Below are positions 39,253 to 49,834 of a DNA stretch of 53,948 nt, piece by piece. Location of the stretch: the NCBI RefSeq assembly GCF_003149475.2, contig NZ_QFWV02000004.1:567691-621638 (forward strand). The letters are read 5' to 3'. Each line of letters opens with the position of its first letter. The stretch's first letter is position 1. The position numbers and the translations under genes were made by a program. The notes beneath the pieces are model-generated. The model did not search any database, had not been told where the DNA came from, and saw nothing but the letters and a program-made list of their open reading frames with translations. The DNA comes from Oceaniradius stylonematis (GTDB lineage Bacteria > Pseudomonadota > Alphaproteobacteria > Rhizobiales > Rhizobiaceae).

Positions 39253-39403
39253 GGCAGGTCCGGTGCAAAGGCGGTTGACGTCGGCGGCCGGCTTAACGCG
39301 TTTGCGCCGTCACGCACAGGTGCCGACCGTCATGTTTGCGCCGCACAATGCGAACCGCTAAAGAATGGTTGCGCCCTTCCACCCTTGTCCGGGAATTCCT
39401 GCC

Positions 39404-42400
39404 TTGACCATCACCAAACTGCTCGTCGCCAACCGCTCCGAGATCGCCATCCGCGTGTTCCGCGCCGCCAACGAGCTTGGCATGACAACCGTCGCGATAT
39501 GGGCCGAGGAGGACAAGCTGGCGCTGCACCGGTTCAAGGCCGACGAGAGCTATCAGGTCGGCCGCGGCGGGCATCTGGACAAGGATCTCGGCCCGATCGA
39601 GAGCTATCTGTCCATCGAAGAAGTGATCCGCGTTGCCAAACAGTCGGGCGCCGATGCGATCCATCCCGGCTACGGGCTTCTGTCGGAAAGCCCCGAATTC
39701 GTCGATGCGTGCGATGAAGCCGGCATCATCTTCATCGGGCCGCGCGCCGACACGATGCGCGCGCTCGGCAACAAGGTCTCGGCCCGAAACCTCGCCGTCG
39801 AGGCGGGCGTGCCCGTGGTGCCGGCGACCGAGCCGCTGCCCGACGACATGGACAAGGTGCGCGCCATGGCCGCCGAGATCGGCTATCCGGTGATGCTGAA
39901 AGCGTCCTGGGGTGGGGGCGGACGCGGCATGCGCGCCATCCGCTCCGAGGACGATCTGGAACGCGAGGTGACCGAGGCCAAGCGCGAGGCGATGGCGGCG
40001 TTCGGCAAGGACGAGGTCTATCTGGAAAAGCTCGTCGAGCGGGCCCGCCATGTCGAGGTGCAGATCCTCGGCGACACGCACGGCAATGTCGTTCATCTGT
40101 TCGAGCGCGACTGCTCGATCCAGCGGCGCAACCAGAAGGTCGTCGAACGCGCGCCGGCGCCCTATCTCGACAATGCGCAACGCGCCGAACTGGCCGAACA
40201 TGCGATGAAGATCGCCCGCGCCACCGACTATGTCGGCGCCGGCACGGTCGAATTCCTGATGGATGCGGATACCGGCTCGTTTTACTTCATCGAGGTCAAT
40301 CCGCGCATCCAGGTCGAGCATACGGTTACCGAGGAAGTGACCGGCATCGACATCGTCAAGGCGCAGATCAGGATTCTCGAGGGCGAAAGGATCGGCGATC
40401 CGGCATCGGGCGTGCCGGCGCAGGAGGACATCGCGCTGCACGGCCATGCGCTGCAGTGCCGTATCACCACCGAAGATCCCGAGCAGAACTTCATTCCCGA
40501 TTATGGCCGGATCACCGCCTATCGGGGCGCGACCGGCTTCGGCATCCGGCTCGATGGCGGCACGGCCTATTCGGGCGCGGTGATCACGCGCTTTTACGAC
40601 CCGCTTCTGGAAAAGGTGACGGCCTGGGCGCCGACGCCCGAAGAAGCGATCCGGCGCATGGACCGGGCGCTGCGCGAGTTCCGCATCCGCGGCGTCGCCA
40701 CCAACCTGACCTTCCTTGAGGCGATCATCGGCCATGAGGATTTCAAGGCCAACCGCTACACGACCAAGTTCATCGACACGACGCCGGAGCTGTTCGCCGC
40801 CGTCAAGCGCCAGGACCGGGCGACCAAGCTCCTGACCTATCTGGCCGACGTCACCGTCAACGGCCATCCCGAGACCAAGGGCCGGCCGAAGCCGCCCGCC
40901 CATGCGGTGCCGCCGGAACCGCCCTTCGTCGGCGGGCCGGTGCCCGAAGGCGGCACCAAACGGATGCTGGACGAGATGGGGCCGGCGAAGTTCGGCCAAT
41001 GGCTGCGCGAACATGATCCGGTGATGATCACCGACACGACGATGCGCGACGGGCATCAGAGCCTGCTCGCAACGCGCATGCGCACCTACGACATGGGACG
41101 GATCGCCGGGACGTATGCGCGCGCGCTGCCGAACCTTCTGTCGCTGGAGTGCTGGGGCGGGGCGACCTTCGATGTCTCGATGCGGTTCCTCACCGAGGAC
41201 CCGTGGGAGAGGCTGTCCGTCATCCGCGAGGCGGCGCCGAACATTCTGTTGCAGATGCTGCTGCGCGGCGCCAACGGCGTCGGCTACACCAACTATCCCG
41301 ACAATGTGGTCAAGCACTTCGTCCGGCAGGCGGCGAGCGGCGGCATCGACCTGTTCCGCGTCTTCGATTGCCTGAACTGGGTGCCGAACATGCGCGTCGC
41401 CATGGACGCGGTCGCCGAGGAGAACAAGATCTGCGAGGCGGCGATCTGCTATACCGGCGACATCCTCAATTCGGCACGGCCGAAATACGATCTGAAATAC
41501 TATGTCGGCATGCTCAGGGAACTGGAAGCGGCCGGCGCGCACATGATCGCGGTCAAGGACATGGCGGGCCTTCTCAAGCCGGCCGCCGCGACGGTGCTTT
41601 TCAAGACGCTGCGCGAGGAAACGGATCTGGCGCTGCATTTCCACACGCACGACACGTCCGGCATCGCGGCGGCGACGATCCTTGCGGCGATCGATGCCGG
41701 CGTCGATGCGGTCGATGCCTCGATGGACGCCCTGTCGGGCCTGACGGCGCAGCCCTGCCTTGGTTCGATCGCCGAGGCGCTGACCGGCACCAAGCGCGAT
41801 CCGGGGCTGGACCCCGAATGGATCCGGCGCATTTCCTTCTACTGGGAAGCGGTCCGCGCCCAGTACGCCGCCTTCGAGAGCGATCTGAAGGGGCCGGCGT
41901 CGGAGGTCTATCTGCACGAAATGCCGGGCGGGCAGTTCACCAATCTGAAGGAACAGGCCCGCTCGCTCGGCCTCGACACGCGCTGGCACGAGGTCGCCCG
42001 CGCCTATCACGACGTCAACATGATGTTCGGCGACATCGTCAAGGTGACGCCGTCCTCCAAGGTGGTCGGCGACATGGCGCTGATGATGGTCAGCCAGGAT
42101 CTGACGGTCGCCGATGTCGAGAACCCCAAAAAGGACATCGCGTTCCCGGACTCGGTGGTCTCGATGATGCGCGGCGATCTGGGTCAGCCGCCGGGCGGCT
42201 GGCCGGAGGGCATCCAGAAAAAGGTGCTCAAGGGAGAAGAGCCCTACACCGACGTGCCTGGCTCTCTGCTTCCGCCGGAGGATCTGGACGCACGTCGCGC
42301 CGAAATCGAGGACAAGCTCGGCCGCGAACTGAACGAATATGAGTTCGCCGCCTATCTGATGTATCCCAAGGTGTTCACCGACTTCGCGCTGGCGCAGGAC

Positions 42401-42880
42401 AAATACGGGCCGGTCAGCGCGCTGCCGACACCCAACTATTTCTACGGTCTGCCGGCGGCCGAGGAGGTTTTCGTCGACATCGAAAAGGGCAAGACGCTGG
42501 TCATCCGCTGCCTTGCCGTCGGCGAGCCGGACGACAAGGGCATGGTGACGGTGTTCTTCGAGCTGAACGGCCAGCCAAGGCGCATCAAGGTGCCAGACCG
42601 GGTGCACGGCGCCGAAAGTTCGGTCGCCCGGCGCAAGGCCGAGGACGGTAACGAGGCCCATGTCGGCGCACCGATGCCGGGTGTCGTCTCGACCGTCTCG
42701 GTGGCCGGCGGCCAGGAGGTCAAGAAGGGCGACGTGCTGGTGTCGATCGAGGCGATGAAGATGGAAACCGCACTGCACGCCGAACGCGACGGCACGGTGT
42801 CCGACGTTCTGGTCAAGGCCGGGGACCAGATCGACGCCAAGGATTTGCTGGTGATTTACGCCGCCGGCCAGGCGGAATGA
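39404..42880 (+). CDS. pyc: Pyruvate carboxylase
   Basis: This biotin-dependent enzyme carboxylates pyruvate to oxaloacetate. In order it has biotin carboxylase (ATP-grasp, KASWGGGGRGMR), carboxyltransferase (ITDTTMRDGHQSLLATRMR; metal site VKDMAGLLKP and HFHTHDTSG) and the C-terminal biotin carrier with EAMKMET, its lysine about 40 residues from the end. The sequence is very close to the rhizobial enzyme. Start: TTG 39404 gives the family N-terminus TITKLLVANRSEIAIRV; ATG 39365 adds 13 residues. Its biotin importer operon follows directly. Confidence 0.97.
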   Translation: MTITKLLVANRSEIAIRVFRAANELGMTTVAIWAEEDKLALHRFKADESYQVGRGGHLDKDLGPIESYLSIEEVIRVAKQSGADAIHPGYGLLSESPEFVDACDEAGIIFIGPRADTMRALGNKVSARNLAVEAGVPVVPATEPLPDDMDKVRAMAAEIGYPVMLKASWGGGGRGMRAIRSEDDLEREVTEAKREAMAAFGKDEVYLEKLVERARHVEVQILGDTHGNVVHLFERDCSIQRRNQKVVERAPAPYLDNAQRAELAEHAMKIARATDYVGAGTVEFLMDADTGSFYFIEVNPRIQVEHTVTEEVTGIDIVKAQIRILEGERIGDPASGVPAQEDIALHGHALQCRITTEDPEQNFIPDYGRITAYRGATGFGIRLDGGTAYSGAVITRFYDPLLEKVTAWAPTPEEAIRRMDRALREFRIRGVATNLTFLEAIIGHEDFKANRYTTKFIDTTPELFAAVKRQDRATKLLTYLADVTVNGHPETKGRPKPPAHAVPPEPPFVGGPVPEGGTKRMLDEMGPAKFGQWLREHDPVMITDTTMRDGHQSLLATRMRTYDMGRIAGTYARALPNLLSLECWGGATFDVSMRFLTEDPWERLSVIREAAPNILLQMLLRGANGVGYTNYPDNVVKHFVRQAASGGIDLFRVFDCLNWVPNMRVAMDAVAEENKICEAAICYTGDILNSARPKYDLKYYVGMLRELEAAGAHMIAVKDMAGLLKPAAATVLFKTLREETDLALHFHTHDTSGIAAATILAAIDAGVDAVDASMDALSGLTAQPCLGSIAEALTGTKRDPGLDPEWIRRISFYWEAVRAQYAAFESDLKGPASEVYLHEMPGGQFTNLKEQARSLGLDTRWHEVARAYHDVNMMFGDIVKVTPSSKVVGDMALMMVSQDLTVADVENPKKDIAFPDSVVSMMRGDLGQPPGGWPEGIQKKVLKGEEPYTDVPGSLLPPEDLDARRAEIEDKLGRELNEYEFAAYLMYPKVFTDFALAQDKYGPVSALPTPNYFYGLPAAEEVFVDIEKGKTLVIRCLAVGEPDDKGMVTVFFELNGQPRRIKVPDRVHGAESSVARRKAEDGNEAHVGAPMPGVVSTVSVAGGQEVKKGDVLVSIEAMKMETALHAERDGTVSDVLVKAGDQIDAKDLLVIYAAGQAE

Positions 42881-42927
42881 GGGCCGCGCCCCGCGGTGAA
42901 TGCGACCTTCGGCACTTTTGGTTCGTC

Positions 42928-42953
42928 ACCACTTACCTTATTATGTGAGTGGT
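42928..42953 (+). promoter_or_regulatory. Dyad overlapping a -10-like box upstream of bioY
   Basis: ACCACTTAC and GTGAGTGGT form an inverted repeat (8 of 9 pairs) around CTTATTAT. The TATTAT at 42939-42944 is a good -10 element, with TTGGTT at 42918-42923 as a weak -35. A repressor on this dyad would block the promoter of the bioYMN operon. It is not the known BioR motif (TTATCTATAA-like). Confidence 0.5.
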
Positions 42954-43134
42954 TGCTTACTGAAAAGCGCCGGCCGGTCACCGGCACGGCGCGACCGGGC
43001 TTGAGCGGCGGGCAATGCGCCCTTGGCGTGACGGGGCGAATTGGCCTAAACCGCATCCCGAACGATGGGACGTCGCTCGGAGATGGGGCATTCCGCCCGC
43101 CGGGTCTCCTCGCATTCAGGATCACAAAGCTCAG

Positions 43135-43689
43135 ATGACCAACGAAAAAACCCGCGACATCGTCCTGATCGCACTTTTTGCCGCGATCATGGCCGTGCTC
43201 GGCGTCTTCCCGCCGATCACGCTGCCGCTCGTCGGCGTGCCGATCACCGCCCAGTCGCTTGGCGTGATGCTGGCAGGCGGCATATTGGGCGCACGGCGGG
43301 GCGCGCTCGCCATGGTTCTTTTCCTGGTGCTGGTCGCTGCCGGCCTGCCGCTCCTGTCCGGCGGCAGGGGCGGTTTCGCGGTCTTTCTGGGGCCAAGCGG
43401 CGGCTTTCTGGTCGGCTGGATCGTCGCCGCCTTCGTCGTCGGTCTGATGGTCGAACGGTTCTGGCCGCGGCTCGGCCATGTCAACGCGTTCGCCGCCTGC
43501 GTCTTCGGCGGTATCGTCGTCCTCTATGCGATCGGCATTCCGTGGATCGCGTTCGCCGCCGAGATTTCGATCGCGCAGGCCTTTGTCGGCTCGATGCCGT
43601 TCGTGCCGGGCGATGTGATCAAGGCGGTCATCGCCGCGACCGTCATCGTGACCGTGGCGCGGTCCTACCCGGTCATCGTGTCGCGCTAG
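43135..43689 (+). CDS. bioY: Biotin transporter substrate-binding subunit BioY
   Basis: The 184-residue protein is the S-component of a biotin ECF transporter. It has six membrane helices, with LVGVPITAQSLGVMLAGGILGARRGALAM and GGRGGFAVFLGPSGGFLVGWIVAAF being the BioY core. It binds biotin with high affinity and is energised by BioM and BioN encoded next to it. It follows pyc, the main biotinylated enzyme in this window. ATG 43135 has only a weak ribosome binding site. Confidence 0.96.
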   Translation: MTNEKTRDIVLIALFAAIMAVLGVFPPITLPLVGVPITAQSLGVMLAGGILGARRGALAMVLFLVLVAAGLPLLSGGRGGFAVFLGPSGGFLVGWIVAAFVVGLMVERFWPRLGHVNAFAACVFGGIVVLYAIGIPWIAFAAEISIAQAFVGSMPFVPGDVIKAVIAATVIVTVARSYPVIVSR

Positions 43690-43722
43690 CGGACCCATCT
43701 TGCACGCGGGAAGGCGCAGCCA

Positions 43723-44403
43723 TTGATCCAGCTTGAAGGGGTGACCGTTCGCAAGGGCGATACGCTCATACTAGACGCGATCTCGGTGACGCTCACCGAA
43801 CGGCGGATCGGCATTATCGGGGCGAACGGATCGGGCAAGAGCACGTTCGCGCGGCTGCTCAACGGGCTGGAACGGCCGACCACAGGCACAGTCCGGGTCG
43901 ACGGGCAGCCGACGGACCGGAAATCGCCGCTGGGCAAGGTGGGCTTCGTTTTCCAGAATCCCGACAACCAGATCGTCATGCCGCTGGTCGATGAGGATCT
44001 GGCGTTCGGTCTTCGAAAATCCGGCCTGTCGAAGTTCGAGATCGGTGCGCGCGTGCGTAGCCATCTGGACCGGTTCGGGCTCACCCACCTGAGCGAGCGG
44101 CGCACCCACGAACTGAGCGGCGGCGAAAAGCAGCTTGTCGCGCTGATCGGCGTTCTGGTGATGGAGCCGGCGATCATCGTGCTGGACGAGCCGACCACAT
44201 TGCTCGACCTGCGCAACCGGCGCATACTGGTCTCGTTTCTGGACAGGCTCGACCAGACGCTGATTGTGGTGAGCCACGATCTGGAGCTGATGGCGTCGAT
44301 GGACCGTCTCATCTGGATTGACGAGAGACGGATTCGCGGCGACGGCGATGCCGGCGACATTGTGCGCGCCTACCGGGAGGCGATAGCGACCGAACCATGC
44401 TGA
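43723..44403 (+). CDS. bioM: Biotin ECF transporter ATPase BioM
   Basis: The 226-residue ATPase drives the BioMNY importer. Walker A GANGSGKSTF, the signature LSGGEKQLVA and Walker B IIVLDEPTTLLDL are present. The start codon is TTG 43723, after GGGAAGG. It overlaps bioN by 7 bases and follows bioY by 33. An early FQNPDNQIVMPLVDEDLAFGL segment is typical of ECF ATPases. Confidence 0.95.
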   Translation: MIQLEGVTVRKGDTLILDAISVTLTERRIGIIGANGSGKSTFARLLNGLERPTTGTVRVDGQPTDRKSPLGKVGFVFQNPDNQIVMPLVDEDLAFGLRKSGLSKFEIGARVRSHLDRFGLTHLSERRTHELSGGEKQLVALIGVLVMEPAIIVLDEPTTLLDLRNRRILVSFLDRLDQTLIVVSHDLELMASMDRLIWIDERRIRGDGDAGDIVRAYREAIATEPC

Positions 44404-45032
44404 CAAGCGATTACGTCCCCGGAGACAGCGCCGTTCATCGCGCCCGGCCGCTGATCAAGGTCGGCCTGCTGTTCGTCTTCTGTACATGGCTTTTCTTGCA
44501 GGAGGGCTGGCTGTCGCTGAGCGTCGCCGGGATGGCACTGGCGGCGCTCCTTGCTGTCGCGCGCATTCCGCCGAGGATGGTTTTTGCCGCCGTCCGTCCG
44601 GCCCTGTGGGTGCTTGGCCTGATCTTCCTGGCGCAGCTCTTTCTCGCCGACTGGCGTTTCGCCGGCTTCGTCGTGCTGCGCTTTGCCGTGATGATCCTCG
44701 CCGCGTCGCTTTTGACGCTGACCACGCGGACGAGCGATCTGGTCGAGGCCATCGAAGGCGCCTTGAGCCAATTTCTTCCGCAAAGATCGGCCGAAGCGAT
44801 CAGCCTCGCCCTGTCTTTGTGCCTGCGCTTCATCCCGAGGGTCCGCGACATCTTCGATGAGGTGAAGAATGCGCAAAGGGCGCGGGGGCTGGGGACGAGC
44901 TGGCGGGCGCTGGTCACGCCGACCATCGTCCGGGCGCTCAAGTCGGCCGACGAGATCGCGCGGGCCATCGTGGCGCGCTCGCCTGGCCCCGCCGACGGAC
45001 CGGCAATGCCGGATGGCCGCCATGTCCGGTGA
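44397..45032 (+). CDS. bioN: Biotin ECF transporter transmembrane subunit BioN
   Basis: The 211-residue T-component has about four or five membrane helices and the cytoplasmic coupling motif QRARGLGTSWRAL (the Ala-Arg-Gly signature of EcfT). It joins BioY to the BioM ATPase. It overlaps bioM by 7 bases and the next gene by 11, in a tightly coupled operon. Confidence 0.93.
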   Translation: MLTSDYVPGDSAVHRARPLIKVGLLFVFCTWLFLQEGWLSLSVAGMALAALLAVARIPPRMVFAAVRPALWVLGLIFLAQLFLADWRFAGFVVLRFAVMILAASLLTLTTRTSDLVEAIEGALSQFLPQRSAEAISLALSLCLRFIPRVRDIFDEVKNAQRARGLGTSWRALVTPTIVRALKSADEIARAIVARSPGPADGPAMPDGRHVR

Positions 45033-45723
45033 CGACGCGACCGAAGCGGACGCCGGGCAGTTCGCCGATCTGGTCCGCAAGCGCCGGTCGGTGCGCGCCT
45101 ATCTCGACACCGATGTCAGCCGCGCGCAGATCGAAGCCATCCTTGACATGGCACGCCACGCGCCGAGCGGCGGCAACATGCAGCCATGGAATGTCCATGT
45201 GCTCGGCCGGCAAACGATCGGCGAGTTGGGCGATGCGATCCGGACGGCGCTCGCCGAGCCCGACTACGTCGAGACAGGCGATTACCGCTACTATCCGGCA
45301 CGACCCGTCGCGCCCTATGGCGACCGCATCCGGCAGGCGGGCCACGATCTTTACGAGGCGCTGGGGATCGGCCGCCGGGACGTGGCCGCGCGCCGCGAAC
45401 AGAAGCTGAAGAATTTCGATTTTTTCGGCGCGCCAGCCGGCCTTCTGGTGACGATCGATGCGCGGCTGGAGCGCGGAAGCTGGATCGATGTCGGCCTGTT
45501 CCTCAACGCGCTGTCGCTGGCGATCGTCAGCCAGGGGCTCGGATGCTGCCTGCAGGCCAGCTTTTCGAGCCATGGCGATGCGGTGCGGCGGGTGCTGGGC
45601 CTTGAGCGCGATGCGCTGGTCGTCTGCGGCGTCGCCGTCGGCCATGCCGACGAGACCCATCCGGTCAACCGGCAGCCGCTGCGCCGTCAGGACGTTGCCG
45701 AATTTGTGCGGTTTCACCCATGA
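45022..45723 (+). CDS. Nitroreductase family protein
   Basis: The 233-residue protein binds FMN through RKRRSVRAYLDTD and GLGCCLQASF. It belongs to the nitroreductase fold and may reduce nitro compounds, quinones or flavins; a BluB function is not supported. ATG 45022 (MSGDDATEADAGQ) lies inside the 3' end of bioN. It overlaps the next gene by four bases. Its place in the biotin operon suggests a linked role, which is inference. Confidence 0.85.
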   Translation: MSGDDATEADAGQFADLVRKRRSVRAYLDTDVSRAQIEAILDMARHAPSGGNMQPWNVHVLGRQTIGELGDAIRTALAEPDYVETGDYRYYPARPVAPYGDRIRQAGHDLYEALGIGRRDVAARREQKLKNFDFFGAPAGLLVTIDARLERGSWIDVGLFLNALSLAIVSQGLGCCLQASFSSHGDAVRRVLGLERDALVVCGVAVGHADETHPVNRQPLRRQDVAEFVRFHP

Positions 45724-46142
45724 TCGAAATTCGCGGCCATCATCTGCTGTGCGCCGTAACCTTTGTCGGGCGGGGCTATTCGCGCCGGTTCGAACGCGAT
45801 TACAGGCGCGTCATCGCGCGCATGAACGACAATGAGGAGATGGTCATCGTTGGCGGGCCCGACGCGATATGCGCGTCGGTAAAGGATTGCGCGGGCAGCC
45901 ATTGCCATGAGGAGCGGATCGTCGCCCGCGACCGGGCCGCCCTGGCCGCAATATCGGCGCTGACGGGACGCATGCTGACGGTCGGCTCGCGGATCATGCC
46001 GCACGATGTCTTCACCGCGCGCCACCGGGCGGCGTTTCGCGATGGGACGATCCGCGCCGCCTGTGCCGATTGCCAATGGTCGGACCTGTGCGACCGGATC
46101 GCCGCCGACGGCTTTCAGACGACTTTGCTGGACCGGCGGTGA
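45720..46142 (+). CDS. DUF1284 Cys-rich protein
   Basis: The 140-residue protein matches DUF1284. It begins MIEIRGHHLLCAVTFVGRGYS and contains two clusters of cysteines: CASVKDCAGSHC and CADCQWSDLC. These spacings suggest an iron-sulfur cluster or zinc site. No function is known. It overlaps the nitroreductase by four bases and is followed by the acyl-CoA ligase after 14 bases. Confidence 0.82.
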   Translation: MIEIRGHHLLCAVTFVGRGYSRRFERDYRRVIARMNDNEEMVIVGGPDAICASVKDCAGSHCHEERIVARDRAALAAISALTGRMLTVGSRIMPHDVFTARHRAAFRDGTIRAACADCQWSDLCDRIAADGFQTTLLDRR

Positions 46143-46156
46143 GGGGATCGGCGGTC

Positions 46157-47602
46157 ATGGCGTCGCGCATTGCATTGTCGATCCTTGAACATCTGCGCAC
46201 GCGCCCCGGCGCGCCGGTCCTGCATTTCGGAACCGGGACGATCAGCGCCGGCGATCTGGCGGACAGGATCGACCGGCTGTCGCGCGGGCTGCGGTCGCTG
46301 GACCGGCATGGGCGCATCGGGATCGCGATGGAGACGGCGCCGGACACGCTGGCGCTGTTCATCGCTTCGCTGATCGCCGCGCGCGAAACCTTCGTGCTCG
46401 ATCCGTCCTGGCCGGAGGCGACGATCGCCCACGTCACGGCCAGCACCGGGCTCGATGCCGTCGTCGCCCAGATGGACGCAGCGCCCGCCGGGGCGATCGG
46501 CGCCGAAACGCTCGCCCGGATGGGTGCCGACGCGCAGGTGCCCTTCTCGATGGATGAGGATGCGGCCGAACCGCTCTTCACCCTCTTCACCTCCGGCTCC
46601 ACGGGCATGCCCAAGGGCTGCCGGCGCACCGAAACCTCCTGGTTGAGAAGTTTCGAGGCCGACCGCGCGCTCGCCGATCTTGAGGGGCGGGACCTGGTGC
46701 TGGTTCCGGGCAATCTGGCGCATTCGCTGTTTCTCTATGCGGCGGTGCGTGGCCTGTGGGCCGGCTGCGCCATCGCGCTCTTTCCCCGCTTTCGTCCGGA
46801 CCGGGTGTTGGCGCTTGCCGACCGGTTCGGCGATTGCGCCATGTTTGCCGTGCCCACCCAGTTGAGCGCGCTTTGCGCGGCGGCCGAGCGCCGGCATCCG
46901 GGCGTCAAGCGCGTGCTGCTCACGGGCTCCAAGCTGCCTTCCGCGGTCGCCGGACAGGCGCGGCACACATTTCCCGGCGCGGCCCTCATCGAGTTCTACG
47001 GCACGACCGAACTGAGCTACGTCGCCGCTCGTCATGTCGATGCCAACGATCCGCCCTCGCTGGTCGGCAAGCCGCTTGCCGGCGTCGATGTGATGGTCGT
47101 CGACGATGCGGGCGCGCCATGCCCGCCCGGCGCCAGGGGCCGCGTTTTCGTCCGGAGCGGCATGGCGTTCGACGGCTATGTCCGGAACGGGCGCTTCGAG
47201 CCGGCAGAGGCGTCGATCGGCGTCGGCGACGCGGGATGGCTGGACGAAGAGGGCAACCTGCATCTGGACGGGCGGATCGACCGCATGTTCCAGTCGAGCG
47301 GACGCAACATCGTCCCCGAAACCATCGAGGCGGCGCTTGCGGCGATGGAGGGCATCGAGGCCGCGGCCGTGTTCGGCATCCCGGACCCTGTGCGCGAGCA
47401 TCGCATCGTCGCGGTGCTCAAGGCGCCGGTCGCGTCCGGCCGGTCGGCGATCGTCGGCGGCCTGAAGAAGAGCCTGCCGCCCTATGCGATCCCCGGACAC
47501 TATTTCGAATGCGGCGACTGGCCGCTGACCGTTTCGGGCAAGCCGGATCTGGTCACGCTGCGCGAACGGCTCGACGGCGGAACGCTGGAGCCGCTTGCGT
47601 GA
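46157..47602 (+). CDS. AMP-dependent acyl-CoA synthetase-like protein
   Basis: The 481-residue enzyme is of the ANL superfamily. The phosphate-binding loop is FTSGSTGMPKGCRRT, the adenylate motif is EFYGTTELSY, the hinge is DGRIDRMFQSSGRNI, and the C-terminal lysine is in VSGKPDL. It should activate a carboxylic acid as acyl-AMP and acyl-CoA. ATG 46157 follows GAGGGG. Its stop overlaps the thiolase GTG (GTGA). Its place behind bioYMN and before a thiolase resembles Bacillus yhfT-yhfS next to a bioY paralogue, so the acid may relate to biotin or pimelate. Confidence 0.85.
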   Translation: MASRIALSILEHLRTRPGAPVLHFGTGTISAGDLADRIDRLSRGLRSLDRHGRIGIAMETAPDTLALFIASLIAARETFVLDPSWPEATIAHVTASTGLDAVVAQMDAAPAGAIGAETLARMGADAQVPFSMDEDAAEPLFTLFTSGSTGMPKGCRRTETSWLRSFEADRALADLEGRDLVLVPGNLAHSLFLYAAVRGLWAGCAIALFPRFRPDRVLALADRFGDCAMFAVPTQLSALCAAAERRHPGVKRVLLTGSKLPSAVAGQARHTFPGAALIEFYGTTELSYVAARHVDANDPPSLVGKPLAGVDVMVVDDAGAPCPPGARGRVFVRSGMAFDGYVRNGRFEPAEASIGVGDAGWLDEEGNLHLDGRIDRMFQSSGRNIVPETIEAALAAMEGIEAAAVFGIPDPVREHRIVAVLKAPVASGRSAIVGGLKKSLPPYAIPGHYFECGDWPLTVSGKPDLVTLRERLDGGTLEPLA

Positions 47603-48735
47603 GCGGCGCGGTGTGGATGGCCGGCGCCCGCCGGACCCCGGTCGCCCCGCGCGGCGGCGCGTTCGCAGGGCTCGACGCGCACCGGATCGGCGCGGCGCCG
47701 ATCACGGCCCTTGTCGATGACCTCGGCCTTGCCGGCGATGCTGTGGGCTGCGTCATTTTCGGAAACGGCGTTTATGGCGGCGGCAATCCGGCCCGGCTGT
47801 CGGCGCTCGCCGCCGGCCTGCCCGAAACCGTTCCGGCGATGACCATCGATACGCAATGCTGCGGCGGGCTGGACGCGATCCATCTCGCGCACAGCCTCGT
47901 CGCCTCGGGCGCGCACGAATTCGTTCTTGCCGGCGGCGTCGAATCCTACAGCGCCGCGCCGCGCCGCTTCCGGCGTTCGGCGGCGGGAGAAGCGGATGTC
48001 GAATATCAGCGGCCGCCCTTTTCGCCCTGGCCCGGGCGCGATCCGGACATGCTCGAAGCGGCCGCGCTTCTGGCGCGGCAGATGGGAATTACGCGAGCGG
48101 AACAGGAGGCGTTCGCCTGCCGCAGCCATGCCGATGCGCTCACCGCGCGGGAAAGGCTCGCCGCCGAATGCGTGCCGCTCGGCGGTCTTGCCCATGACGC
48201 GTTCACCCGGCGGATCGGCCCGAAGCTGTGCGCGCGGCTGCCGGTCCTGGCCGGCGATGATGCGCACGGGCTGACCACGGCGACCACGGCTGTCGAAGCC
48301 GATGCGGGCGCGGTCTGCGCGATCGTCTCGGACGGTTTTTTGGCGGCCCATCCGCATCTCAAACCGCGGGCGATCCGGGTCGCCGGCGGCCTGTCGCTGG
48401 GCGACGATCCCGCCATGCCGGCACTGGCGCCTGTGGCGGCGGTCCGCGAGACGCTGGCTCGCTTTTCCTTGGCGATGGATGGGTTCGACGTGTTCGAACT
48501 GATGGAGGCGTTCGCCGTGCAGGCGATTGCGTGCATCCGGCTGGCCGGCTTTGCGCCGGAGCGGACCAATCTGGGCGGCGGCGCGCTTGCGCGGGGTCAT
48601 CCGGTCGGCGCATCGGGCGCGACCAACGCGGTGCGGCTCTACCATGAAATGCTGGTTCGGCCCGAGGCCGGCAAGGGCCTTGCCGCGATCGCCGGCGCGG
48701 GCGGGCTCGCCGCAACGCTAGTGCTTGCGCGGTAA
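47599..48735 (+). CDS. Thiolase-like protein lacking the second catalytic cysteine
   Basis: The 378-residue protein has the two-domain thiolase fold. The nucleophile Cys87 lies in TIDTQCCGGLDAIHLA, and the histidine motif is GGGALARGHPVGASGATNAV. The usual C-terminal cysteine (in LATLCIGGGxG) is replaced by Ala365 in LAAIAGAGGLAATL, so normal claisen or thiolysis chemistry may be changed. The GTG start overlaps the ligase stop. It is the last gene of the bioYMN operon. Confidence 0.83.
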   Translation: MSGAVWMAGARRTPVAPRGGAFAGLDAHRIGAAPITALVDDLGLAGDAVGCVIFGNGVYGGGNPARLSALAAGLPETVPAMTIDTQCCGGLDAIHLAHSLVASGAHEFVLAGGVESYSAAPRRFRRSAAGEADVEYQRPPFSPWPGRDPDMLEAAALLARQMGITRAEQEAFACRSHADALTARERLAAECVPLGGLAHDAFTRRIGPKLCARLPVLAGDDAHGLTTATTAVEADAGAVCAIVSDGFLAAHPHLKPRAIRVAGGLSLGDDPAMPALAPVAAVRETLARFSLAMDGFDVFELMEAFAVQAIACIRLAGFAPERTNLGGGALARGHPVGASGATNAVRLYHEMLVRPEAGKGLAAIAGAGGLAATLVLAR

Positions 48736-48742
48736 GGCCGGA

Positions 48743-48758
48743 CCCGCGCCGACGCGGG
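48743..48758. terminator. Short hairpin between convergent thiolase and deacetylase genes
   Basis: CCCGCG-CCGA-CGCGGG is a perfect 6-bp stem with a 4-base loop, in the 46-base gap between convergent genes. It has no T-run, so it is a weak terminator candidate. Confidence 0.4.
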
Positions 48759-48781
48759 ACGGTTTGCGGCAGCCAGCGCCG

Positions 48782-49834
48782 TCACATCAGCTTGAAGGGC
48801 ACACCCGACAGCAGCGCCTCGACATAGCGCTTCTTCTGAAAGTGGCCGTTCAGCGAGACGCGCGGCATCGCCGTCGGGTTTTGGAGGCATGCGGCATTCA
48901 GCACGCCGGGCTGTGTGGTCACGGCGGCGGCGAAACCGGCATCGGCCACTGCCTTCACCTCGCGCGCGCCGACCGCTTTGGTCCAGCCATAGGGATAGGC
49001 AAACGACTGTGGCCGGCGGCCCGCATAGGCTTCGACGGCAGCCCTCGATTGTTCGATCTCGGCGTTCAGCCGTTCGTCGCTGACGCGGCGCAGATTGACA
49101 TGGGTCATGGTGTGCGCGCCCAGATGCACCAACCGATCTTCGGCCAGTCGGCGCAGTTCCTCCTCATCCATGACAAGCGAATCGACGATGGCCATCGGGT
49201 CGATATTGTGAACCTGGCGCGCGACGTCATCGATCCTTTGCACCGCTTCGTCCTCGTCGATCGACTGGACGAAGGCTGCAAAGCGTTCGAAGGCAGCGAA
49301 CTTGCGGGCCGTCGTTGTGGCCCGGAGGGTTTCCGGCCCGTCGCCGAAATCGAAGTCGATCCTGTCGGCCTTGCGGGCGATGGCGGCGGCGGTCTCCCAC
49401 CATATGGAGCGTGTACGTTCGACGAAGCCGGGATTGATGAAGATCGTGTAGGGTACGCCGTGCCTGCGGAAGACAGGTGCCGCGAACTCGGCATTGTTGC
49501 GGTAGCCGTCATCGAGCGTGAACGCGACGAAGCGGCGCTGGTCGCCGGGCTCGGCGAGTAATGCCGGCAGGTCGTGCAGGTGAACCGGCGTCAACCCGCT
49601 TTCGAGCGCGGTCTCGACGGCCTGCTCGAGAAATTCCGGCGTTACGGACAAAAGTGCGTTGGGCGAGAACCTGGTGGTCTCCTGTTCAGGGCGGACGTGA
49701 TGAAGCGTGAAGATCACGCCACGGCCGGCGGCGGATGGAAACAGCGACCGGACACCAGGCAGGGCGACGGCTTCCAGCCCGGCGCGGATGATGCCGTATT
49801 TCAGGTAACGCTTGGCTGTTGCACGCGCTGCCAT
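48782..49834 (-). CDS. Polysaccharide deacetylase family protein
   Basis: The 350-residue protein has a NodB homology domain. FTLDDGYRNNAEFAAPVFRRHGVPYTIF carries the two catalytic aspartates, and LGAHTMTHVNL the metal-binding histidines. It should remove acetyl groups from an N-acetylated glycan. ATG 49834 follows GGGAG; the longer frame overlaps the upstream gene. It lies 20 bases downstream of the truncated ATP-grasp gene. Confidence 0.9.
   Translation of the reverse strand: MAARATAKRYLKYGIIRAGLEAVALPGVRSLFPSAAGRGVIFTLHHVRPEQETTRFSPNALLSVTPEFLEQAVETALESGLTPVHLHDLPALLAEPGDQRRFVAFTLDDGYRNNAEFAAPVFRRHGVPYTIFINPGFVERTRSIWWETAAAIARKADRIDFDFGDGPETLRATTTARKFAAFERFAAFVQSIDEDEAVQRIDDVARQVHNIDPMAIVDSLVMDEEELRRLAEDRLVHLGAHTMTHVNLRRVSDERLNAEIEQSRAAVEAYAGRRPQSFAYPYGWTKAVGAREVKAVADAGFAAAVTTQPGVLNAACLQNPTAMPRVSLNGHFQKKRYVEALLSGVPFKLM

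Follow-up and report, generated by a model that had tools for sequence, protein, structure and literature searches.

The stretch of Oceaniradius stylonematis DNA analysed here (the window, 53,948 nucleotides at its full length) carries an operon of seven genes on its forward strand, at 43135–48735: bioY, bioM, bioN, a nitroreductase, a DUF1284 gene, an AMP-forming acyl-coenzyme A (acyl-CoA) ligase and a thiolase. A sequence-only reading of the same DNA had delimited this operon, and the open reading frames, the Pfam matches and the raw sequence bear out both its existence and its coordinates. We describe its genes and their relatives, and tentatively discuss the system as a means of repairing shortened biotin.

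The first three genes form a complete energy-coupling factor (ECF) importer of the BioMNY type. BioY (43135..43689; PF02632, 132.8 bits) is the substrate-binding S component, BioM (43723..44403, TTG start; PF00005, ABC_tran) the ATPase, whose closest NCBIfam models are ECF ATPases although it scores under their cut-offs, and BioN (44397..45032; PF02361 CbiQ, 48.5 bits) the transmembrane T component. They are followed by a nitroreductase-family flavoprotein (45022..45723; PF00881, 107.9 bits), which we propose as a reductase of C=C bonds in enoyl thioesters, and by the Cys-rich DUF1284 protein (45720..46142; PF06935, 59.7 bits). The YhfT-like ligase (46139..47602; PF00501, 163.9 bits) could start at GTG 46139 or ATG 46157, and the YhfS-like thiolase-fold enzyme (47599..48735; PF00108/PF02803) starts at GTG 47599. 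With the ligase read from GTG 46139, the junctions in gene order measure +33, -7, -11, -4, -4 and -4 bp, the sole gap being the first, which separates bioM from bioY; the ATG start would leave a further 14-bp gap after DUF1284. All seven genes recur, in this order and with proteins 81-92% identical, in two congeners (G001 and G004), and the arrangement is therefore more than chance. In two others (G002 and G003) a thiolase match was not found at E 1e-40. Upstream of the operon and in the same direction lies a gene for pyruvate carboxylase, a biotin enzyme (39365-42880), and the operon is likewise downstream of pyruvate carboxylase in G001 and G004.

The BioY of the window retains the PGDxxK motif, as do the other aligned BioMN-type BioY proteins. 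A second bioYMN set lies elsewhere in the window genome (C18:5235-7080) and is not directly followed by a ligase-thiolase pair. In G001, G004 and a third genome (G016) the linked BioY is the single BioY match, and nothing scores over the bioB cut-off; therefore, these bacteria probably rely on what the linked BioY imports. Four loci of one genus (L205, L207, L208, L223) show a tandem bioY pair before the ligase, in which one copy of each has PGGxxK where PGDxxK is usual, and a lone bioY (L226) also carries PGGxxK. This variant is a feature hinting at a second ligand.

An inverted repeat 5' of bioY (42928..42953, no strand assigned; arms ACCACTTAC/GTGAGTGGT, 8-nt spacer) is a possible operator of the operon. 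At a comparable place in a congener (L023, 4789-4832) lies the inverted repeat TGGTAAGTGATTAC/GTGATCACTTACCA, and both repeats have (G)TAAGTG/CACTTA(C)-like arms that flank an AT-rich stretch. Control by BioR, the box consensus of which we take to be TTATMKATAA, was considered and rejected: no such box lies 5' of bioY in the window, with one mismatch allowed, or in related loci. No Rfam element, riboswitches included, reached its gathering score within 42700-49000.

Recurrence of the ligase-thiolase pair with BioY

The best NCBIfam match of the window ligase is NF005797 (235 bits, under the cut-off of 518) and the second-best match of the thiolase is NF005212 (201 bits, under the cut-off of 498). 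We take these models to represent YhfT and YhfS, as is backed by a Fictibacillus bioY-ligase-thiolase operon that scores over both cut-offs; the Bacillota form of the pair matches yhfTS. The sequence-only reading had held that distant bacteria also combine such a pair with BioY. A gene-neighbourhood survey agrees with this: the pair spans Alpha- and Betaproteobacteria, Actinomycetota and Bacillota, and its linkage with bioY holds in these groups, well outside the clade of the window.

In the order, 38 of 397 genomes match a profile of paired-type thiolases at E 1e-110, and the ligase adjoins the thiolase at all 30 order loci listed as well as in wider stretches for the remaining carriers. The class survey (385 genomes), in which matches above 350 bits were examined and up to four candidates per genome scored, gave counts that are lower bounds: at least 10 thiolase matches, at least 8 of them with the pair, window included. 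Two of the matches (L083 and L084) have no such ligase. Among 81 relatives, the closest further matches include one locus with the order bioM-bioN-bioY-ligase-thiolase (L025) and one with ligase-thiolase-bioM-bioN followed by the contig end (L024); in the latter, thiolase and bioM are separated by a thioesterase-like gene (2476-2991, 32% match). Among the best 80 of 588 matches in named genomes, bioY-linked pairs occur in Afipia, Oceanicella, a Rhodobacter metagenome-assembled genome (MAG), a betaproteobacterial MAG, Microbispora, Mycetocola and Fictibacillus; Palleronia has the pair but no bioY with it. The arrangement bioMNY-ligase-thiolase is also present on two Azospirillum plasmids; in both, a major facilitator superfamily transporter follows the thiolase (L276, 10568-11803; L277, 10426-11675, listed as two genes). 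A Rhizobium phaseoli plasmid has thioesterase-ligase-thiolase with a divergent alcohol-dehydrogenase-family gene alongside, and no bioY within the stretch.

The neighbours of the thiolase were compared between 60 ligase-thiolase loci and 74 control thiolase loci. Partner genes were recognised with BLAST, using references taken from the surveyed loci (distant forms may escape), counted up to 6 kb from the thiolase and evaluated with the Fisher test. Left out of the comparison were a thiolase with a short-chain dehydrogenase/reductase (SDR) where the ligase was not found (L097), thiolases without such an adjoining ligase (L027, L029, L030, L032, L033) and the short survey loci, those of carriers being swapped for wider stretches; L164 stays among the controls despite a ligase-like gene within 6 kb. 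In these counts, whose loci are not independent because several congeners and close relatives are included, bioY is found at 43/60 pair loci and 0/74 controls (p 2e-21), the nitroreductase at 11/60 and 0/74 (p 8e-5), a medium-chain dehydrogenase/reductase (MDR) at 9/60 and 1/74 (p 0.005) and a thioesterase at 7/60 and 0/74 (p 0.003). These four enrichments support a BioY-linked, reductive and releasing module. A search for further shared neighbours returned just close-relative synteny, shadow frames or, at four loci, bioN-type proteins missed by the reference.

DUF1284 has a linkage with BioY of its own. It occurs in 9 of 190 alphaproteobacterial genomes. Eight of these are other than the window genome, and within short loci of about 1.5 kb on each side seven of them have bioY as the neighbour gene; bioY was not found in the L269 locus. 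The two genes are directly side by side in L267, L268 and L271-L275, and in the plasmid loci L279 and L282. Ten plasmid records match DUF1284, two of them from Rhodovulum and Niallia. Among the other eight, the match overlaps a BioY feature in five, bioY stands directly before it in one, from Agrobacterium vitis, and bioY was not found in the stretches from Methylobacterium indicum and Azospirillum thermophilum. Because of this adjacency across genomes and plasmids, we regard DUF1284 as a BioY-linked family, with or without the ligase pair. A redox partnership with the nitroreductase, as put forward in the sequence-only reading, is not supported; DUF1284 is tied to BioY itself. Six Cys are invariant across 12 DUF1284 sequences (alignment A5). 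A search for a solved relative gave no credible candidate (best E 0.14), and no mention of DUF1284 was found in the literature searched.

The thiolase site and its candidate reductive partners

In the thiolase mechanism, a second Cys is the base that activates acetyl-CoA. The window thiolase retains Cys87 and His334, while the catalytic Asn is replaced by Met302, giving MEAF where the canonical motif is NEAF, and the second Cys by Ala363. This pattern is general. The acyl-accepting Cys and the His, by which a canonical thiolase is recognised, are present in 60/60 paired thiolases, whereas the second Cys (CxG motif) is found in 0/60 paired thiolases and 71/72 controls, one control being unaligned there. 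At the catalytic-Asn position the paired thiolases have Met (42), Asn (15), Val (2) or His (1), as against Asn in 72/72 controls. In a thiolase tree with 60 paired members and 24 controls, a branch with 100/100 support sets the paired ones apart from the ordinary ones. With the second Cys lost, the base that activates acetyl-CoA is gone. The triad of KAS III is Cys-His-Asn, and since this triad is kept in the NEAF clade of paired thiolases, a decarboxylating condensation is a reasonable guess there. The clade of the window is also without the Asn, and its chemistry is therefore less certain.

The nitroreductase proved to be a recurrent partner of the pair, both at the 11 loci counted above and through two fusions, in which a nitroreductase homologue forms the N-terminus of the ligase (L081 and L082; 717 and 700 aa). 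It adjoins ligase or thiolase in L079, L087, L216, L222, L224 and L233. Against NCBIfam, the window nitroreductase matches six models at E 1e-5, including malonic semialdehyde reductase, and exceeds the cut-off of none; the best match is BluB (42.8 bits, cut-off 150). In a tree of 26 nitroreductases the linked ones form two separate supported groups (100/99 and 99/97), and the well-supported branches force two label changes, a topology that suggests repeated recruitment. One member labelled as unlinked within a linked group (L088) sits about 7 kb from its thiolase, and the unlinked nitroreductases found in a co-occurrence search group outside both linked groups. Related nitroreductases in L284, L293 and L283 lie amid genes that, by eye, resemble acyl-CoA enzymes (hydratase, hydroxyacyl-CoA dehydrogenase, lyase).

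The MDR occurs at nine loci other than those with the nitroreductase. In Afipia and Fictibacillus the thiolase is adjoined by a MaoC-type dehydratase; L025 has an SDR. In Afipia (L085, 635-4255), a fumarate-reductase-like flavoprotein, a probable iron-sulfur subunit (assigned by eye) and a CCG-domain protein are encoded upstream of bioMNY-ligase-thiolase-MaoC on the same strand. We infer that the nitroreductase, the MDR and the Afipia flavoprotein/CCG-domain set are candidates for one slot, the reduction of a C=C bond.

The altered thiolase site also suits a view that requires no condensation, and neither do the ligase-reductase fusions or the thioesterases. After import, biotin or an analogue of it that is longer or unsaturated might be trapped as its CoA ester, with the thiolase-fold protein acting as an acyl transferase or shortening enzyme and the reductase removing double bonds (e.g. 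from dehydrobiotin). We consider this improbable, given that the thiolase Cys and His are retained throughout and that MaoC genes adjoin two pairs.

Biotin synthesis and regulation in the carriers

bioB scores over cut-off in 139/397 genomes of the order and 132/385 of the class. Pair carriers have it less often than other genomes, with 6/38 versus 133/359 in the order (p 0.011) and 0/8 versus 132/377 in the class (p 0.055), kinship being ignored in both tests. Altogether, no bioB over cut-off was detected in 49 of the 57 pair carriers checked, some of which are MAGs and among which is the window genome. A part of the pair in de novo synthesis is therefore not to be expected in most of the carriers checked. 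The sequence-only reading had offered the making of pimeloyl precursors as one of two possible roles; this is unlikely in a genome without bioB, where pimeloyl-CoA should not become biotin. Carriers with bioB do exist (Fictibacillus, Microbispora and the six of the order), and a supply of pimeloyl-CoA for biotin synthesis could be useful to them. However, set against the counts above, it strikes us as barely credible as the function of the pair.

Regulation has been studied in Bacillota. BirA binds the yhfU operator of Bacillus subtilis with biotin and ATP (PMC4016012), and a reporter assay with the yhfS-yhfT promoter shows repression by Staphylococcus aureus BirA with biotin (PMC6391492). Two further reports give related context on these genes (PMC7235819, PMC11089781), and in what is available of the four no biochemical role of yhfT or yhfS is demonstrated. 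Repression by BirA and biotin leaves the genes expressed at times of biotin shortage, and a role in degrading biotin fits poorly with that. Degradation of the side chain by beta-oxidation, be it for carbon or for the disposal of excess, has in its favor that ligase, dehydratase, SDR and thiolase could equally serve oxidation. Besides the repression in Bacillota, the enrichment of MDR, nitroreductase and thioesterase stands against it, although those oxidoreductases may work in either direction, and the 49 carriers without bioB would destroy a vitamin that they must import. We hold this alternative to be very improbable.

Proposed repair of shortened biotin and comparison with known systems

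Bisnorbiotin is a known product of biotin catabolism. In human 24-h urine it is reported at 13-23% of biotin (PMC9106636). We tentatively propose, with a probability of about 0.4 on the strength of sequence comparisons, that the operon imports both biotin and biotin-like acids and repairs shortened biotin, converting bisnorbiotin to biotin. The gene content, the recurrent linkage, the changes in the thiolase site, the nitroreductase-ligase fusion and the undetected bioB are observed; from them we infer the substrate and direction of the pathway, each step of catalysis and what DUF1284 does. BioYMN would import a biotin vitamer with a side chain two carbons short (bisnorbiotin), which the ligase would convert to its CoA thioester. 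The thiolase-fold enzyme, with its acyl-accepting Cys and no second Cys to deprotonate acetyl-CoA, would lengthen the chain by two carbons, perhaps in a KAS III-like reaction with decarboxylation. Ketoreduction and dehydration could be left to housekeeping enzymes; a few related loci have SDR and MaoC genes of their own that could provide these steps. The nitroreductase, or the MDR in relatives, would then saturate the double bond, and a thioesterase would set biotin free. A biotin auxotroph would benefit from such repair, and the repression of the Bacillota genes by biotin agrees with it. The salvage of a biotin breakdown product, the other role offered by the sequence-only reading, is thereby kept, in the building direction: the side chain would be elongated, not oxidised. 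The fuller version, in which bacteria unable to make biotin rebuild it from bisnorbiotin taken up through BioY, with the ligase, a KAS III-like thiolase that has no second Cys, the nitroreductase as enoyl-CoA reductase and DUF1284 as a second BioY-linked biotin factor, is more doubtful. Nothing on bisnorbiotin salvage by bacteria was found in the literature searched, from which subscription papers are mostly absent, and this is no proof of novelty.

Several observations weigh against the repair of bisnorbiotin. Its chief weakness is that the linkage with BioY could reflect common control by biotin shortage rather than a common substrate. Within 6 kb, 17/60 pair loci have no bioY and 40/60 have neither nitroreductase nor MDR. 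A complete local pathway is not favored either, as MaoC is not enriched (2/60 versus 1/74, p 0.59) and SDR genes are rarer than in controls (3/60 versus 14/74, p 0.019). Met in place of the catalytic Asn in 42/60 paired thiolases puts any condensation in doubt. Regarding the reductases, a single gain followed by losses would also agree with the nitroreductase tree, nitroreductases away from the pair show no co-occurrence with it (5/28 carriers versus 7/22 non-carriers), and the mutual exclusion of nitroreductase and MDR is not significant (0/60 loci hold both, p 0.14). Finally, 8/57 carriers have bioB.

The chief weakness leads to the main alternative, a fatty-acid metabolism that spares biotin. 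When acetyl-CoA carboxylase fails, scavenged fatty acids could be activated, or acyl chains extended without malonyl-CoA, and the BioY link would be a shared response to biotin shortage. The window ligase also matches fatty-acid CoA ligase models, the partners are generic chain-elongation enzymes, and BirA control in Bacillota (PMC4016012) and the pairs without nearby bioY agree with this view, which would work in prototrophs and auxotrophs alike. On the other hand, the thioesterases adjoining seven pairs would reverse acyl activation, the thiolase is without the second Cys used for acetyl-CoA condensation, and the operons are packed very tightly with the importer. We regard the sparing of biotin as unlikely.

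Whatever its substrate, the survey describes a multi-phylum, BioY-linked module that occurs mostly in genomes without detected bioB and has a distinctive thiolase site and recurrent reductases, and it reduces the annotation puzzle of yhfT and yhfS to a small number of assays. Should the repair of bisnorbiotin prove true, biotin catabolites would be a usable vitamin source for bacteria.

Four known systems invite comparison. Reverse beta-oxidation modules likewise combine ligase, thiolase and reductase, with MaoC, SDR or thioesterase at some of the related loci; the full set is found at 0/60 loci, and the absence of the second Cys and the linkage to a vitamin importer are further differences. 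BioZ is a KAS III-like enzyme of alphaproteobacterial biotin synthesis, and the window thiolase would likewise serve biotin metabolism by adding two carbons to an acyl thioester. However, BioZ is a KAS III acting in de novo synthesis, while the window protein belongs to the thiolase family and occurs mostly in genomes without detected bioB. The yhfUTS operon of B. subtilis, of the BirA regulon, resembles the window in joining BioY, a YhfT-type ligase and a YhfS-type thiolase, a likeness drawn via the NCBIfam models and the Fictibacillus operon, not from the B. subtilis proteins themselves. It differs in that no nitroreductase, DUF1284 or bioMN is named with it in the available text of its sources, and the window proteins score well under the cut-offs of the yhfUTS-type models, with MEAF, not NEAF, in the thiolase. 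The ECF importer BioMNY is matched in full, with all three components in the window and the BioY motif conserved. To our knowledge, ordinary bioMNY sets have no ligase or thiolase, and it is in carrying both that the window set stands apart from them.

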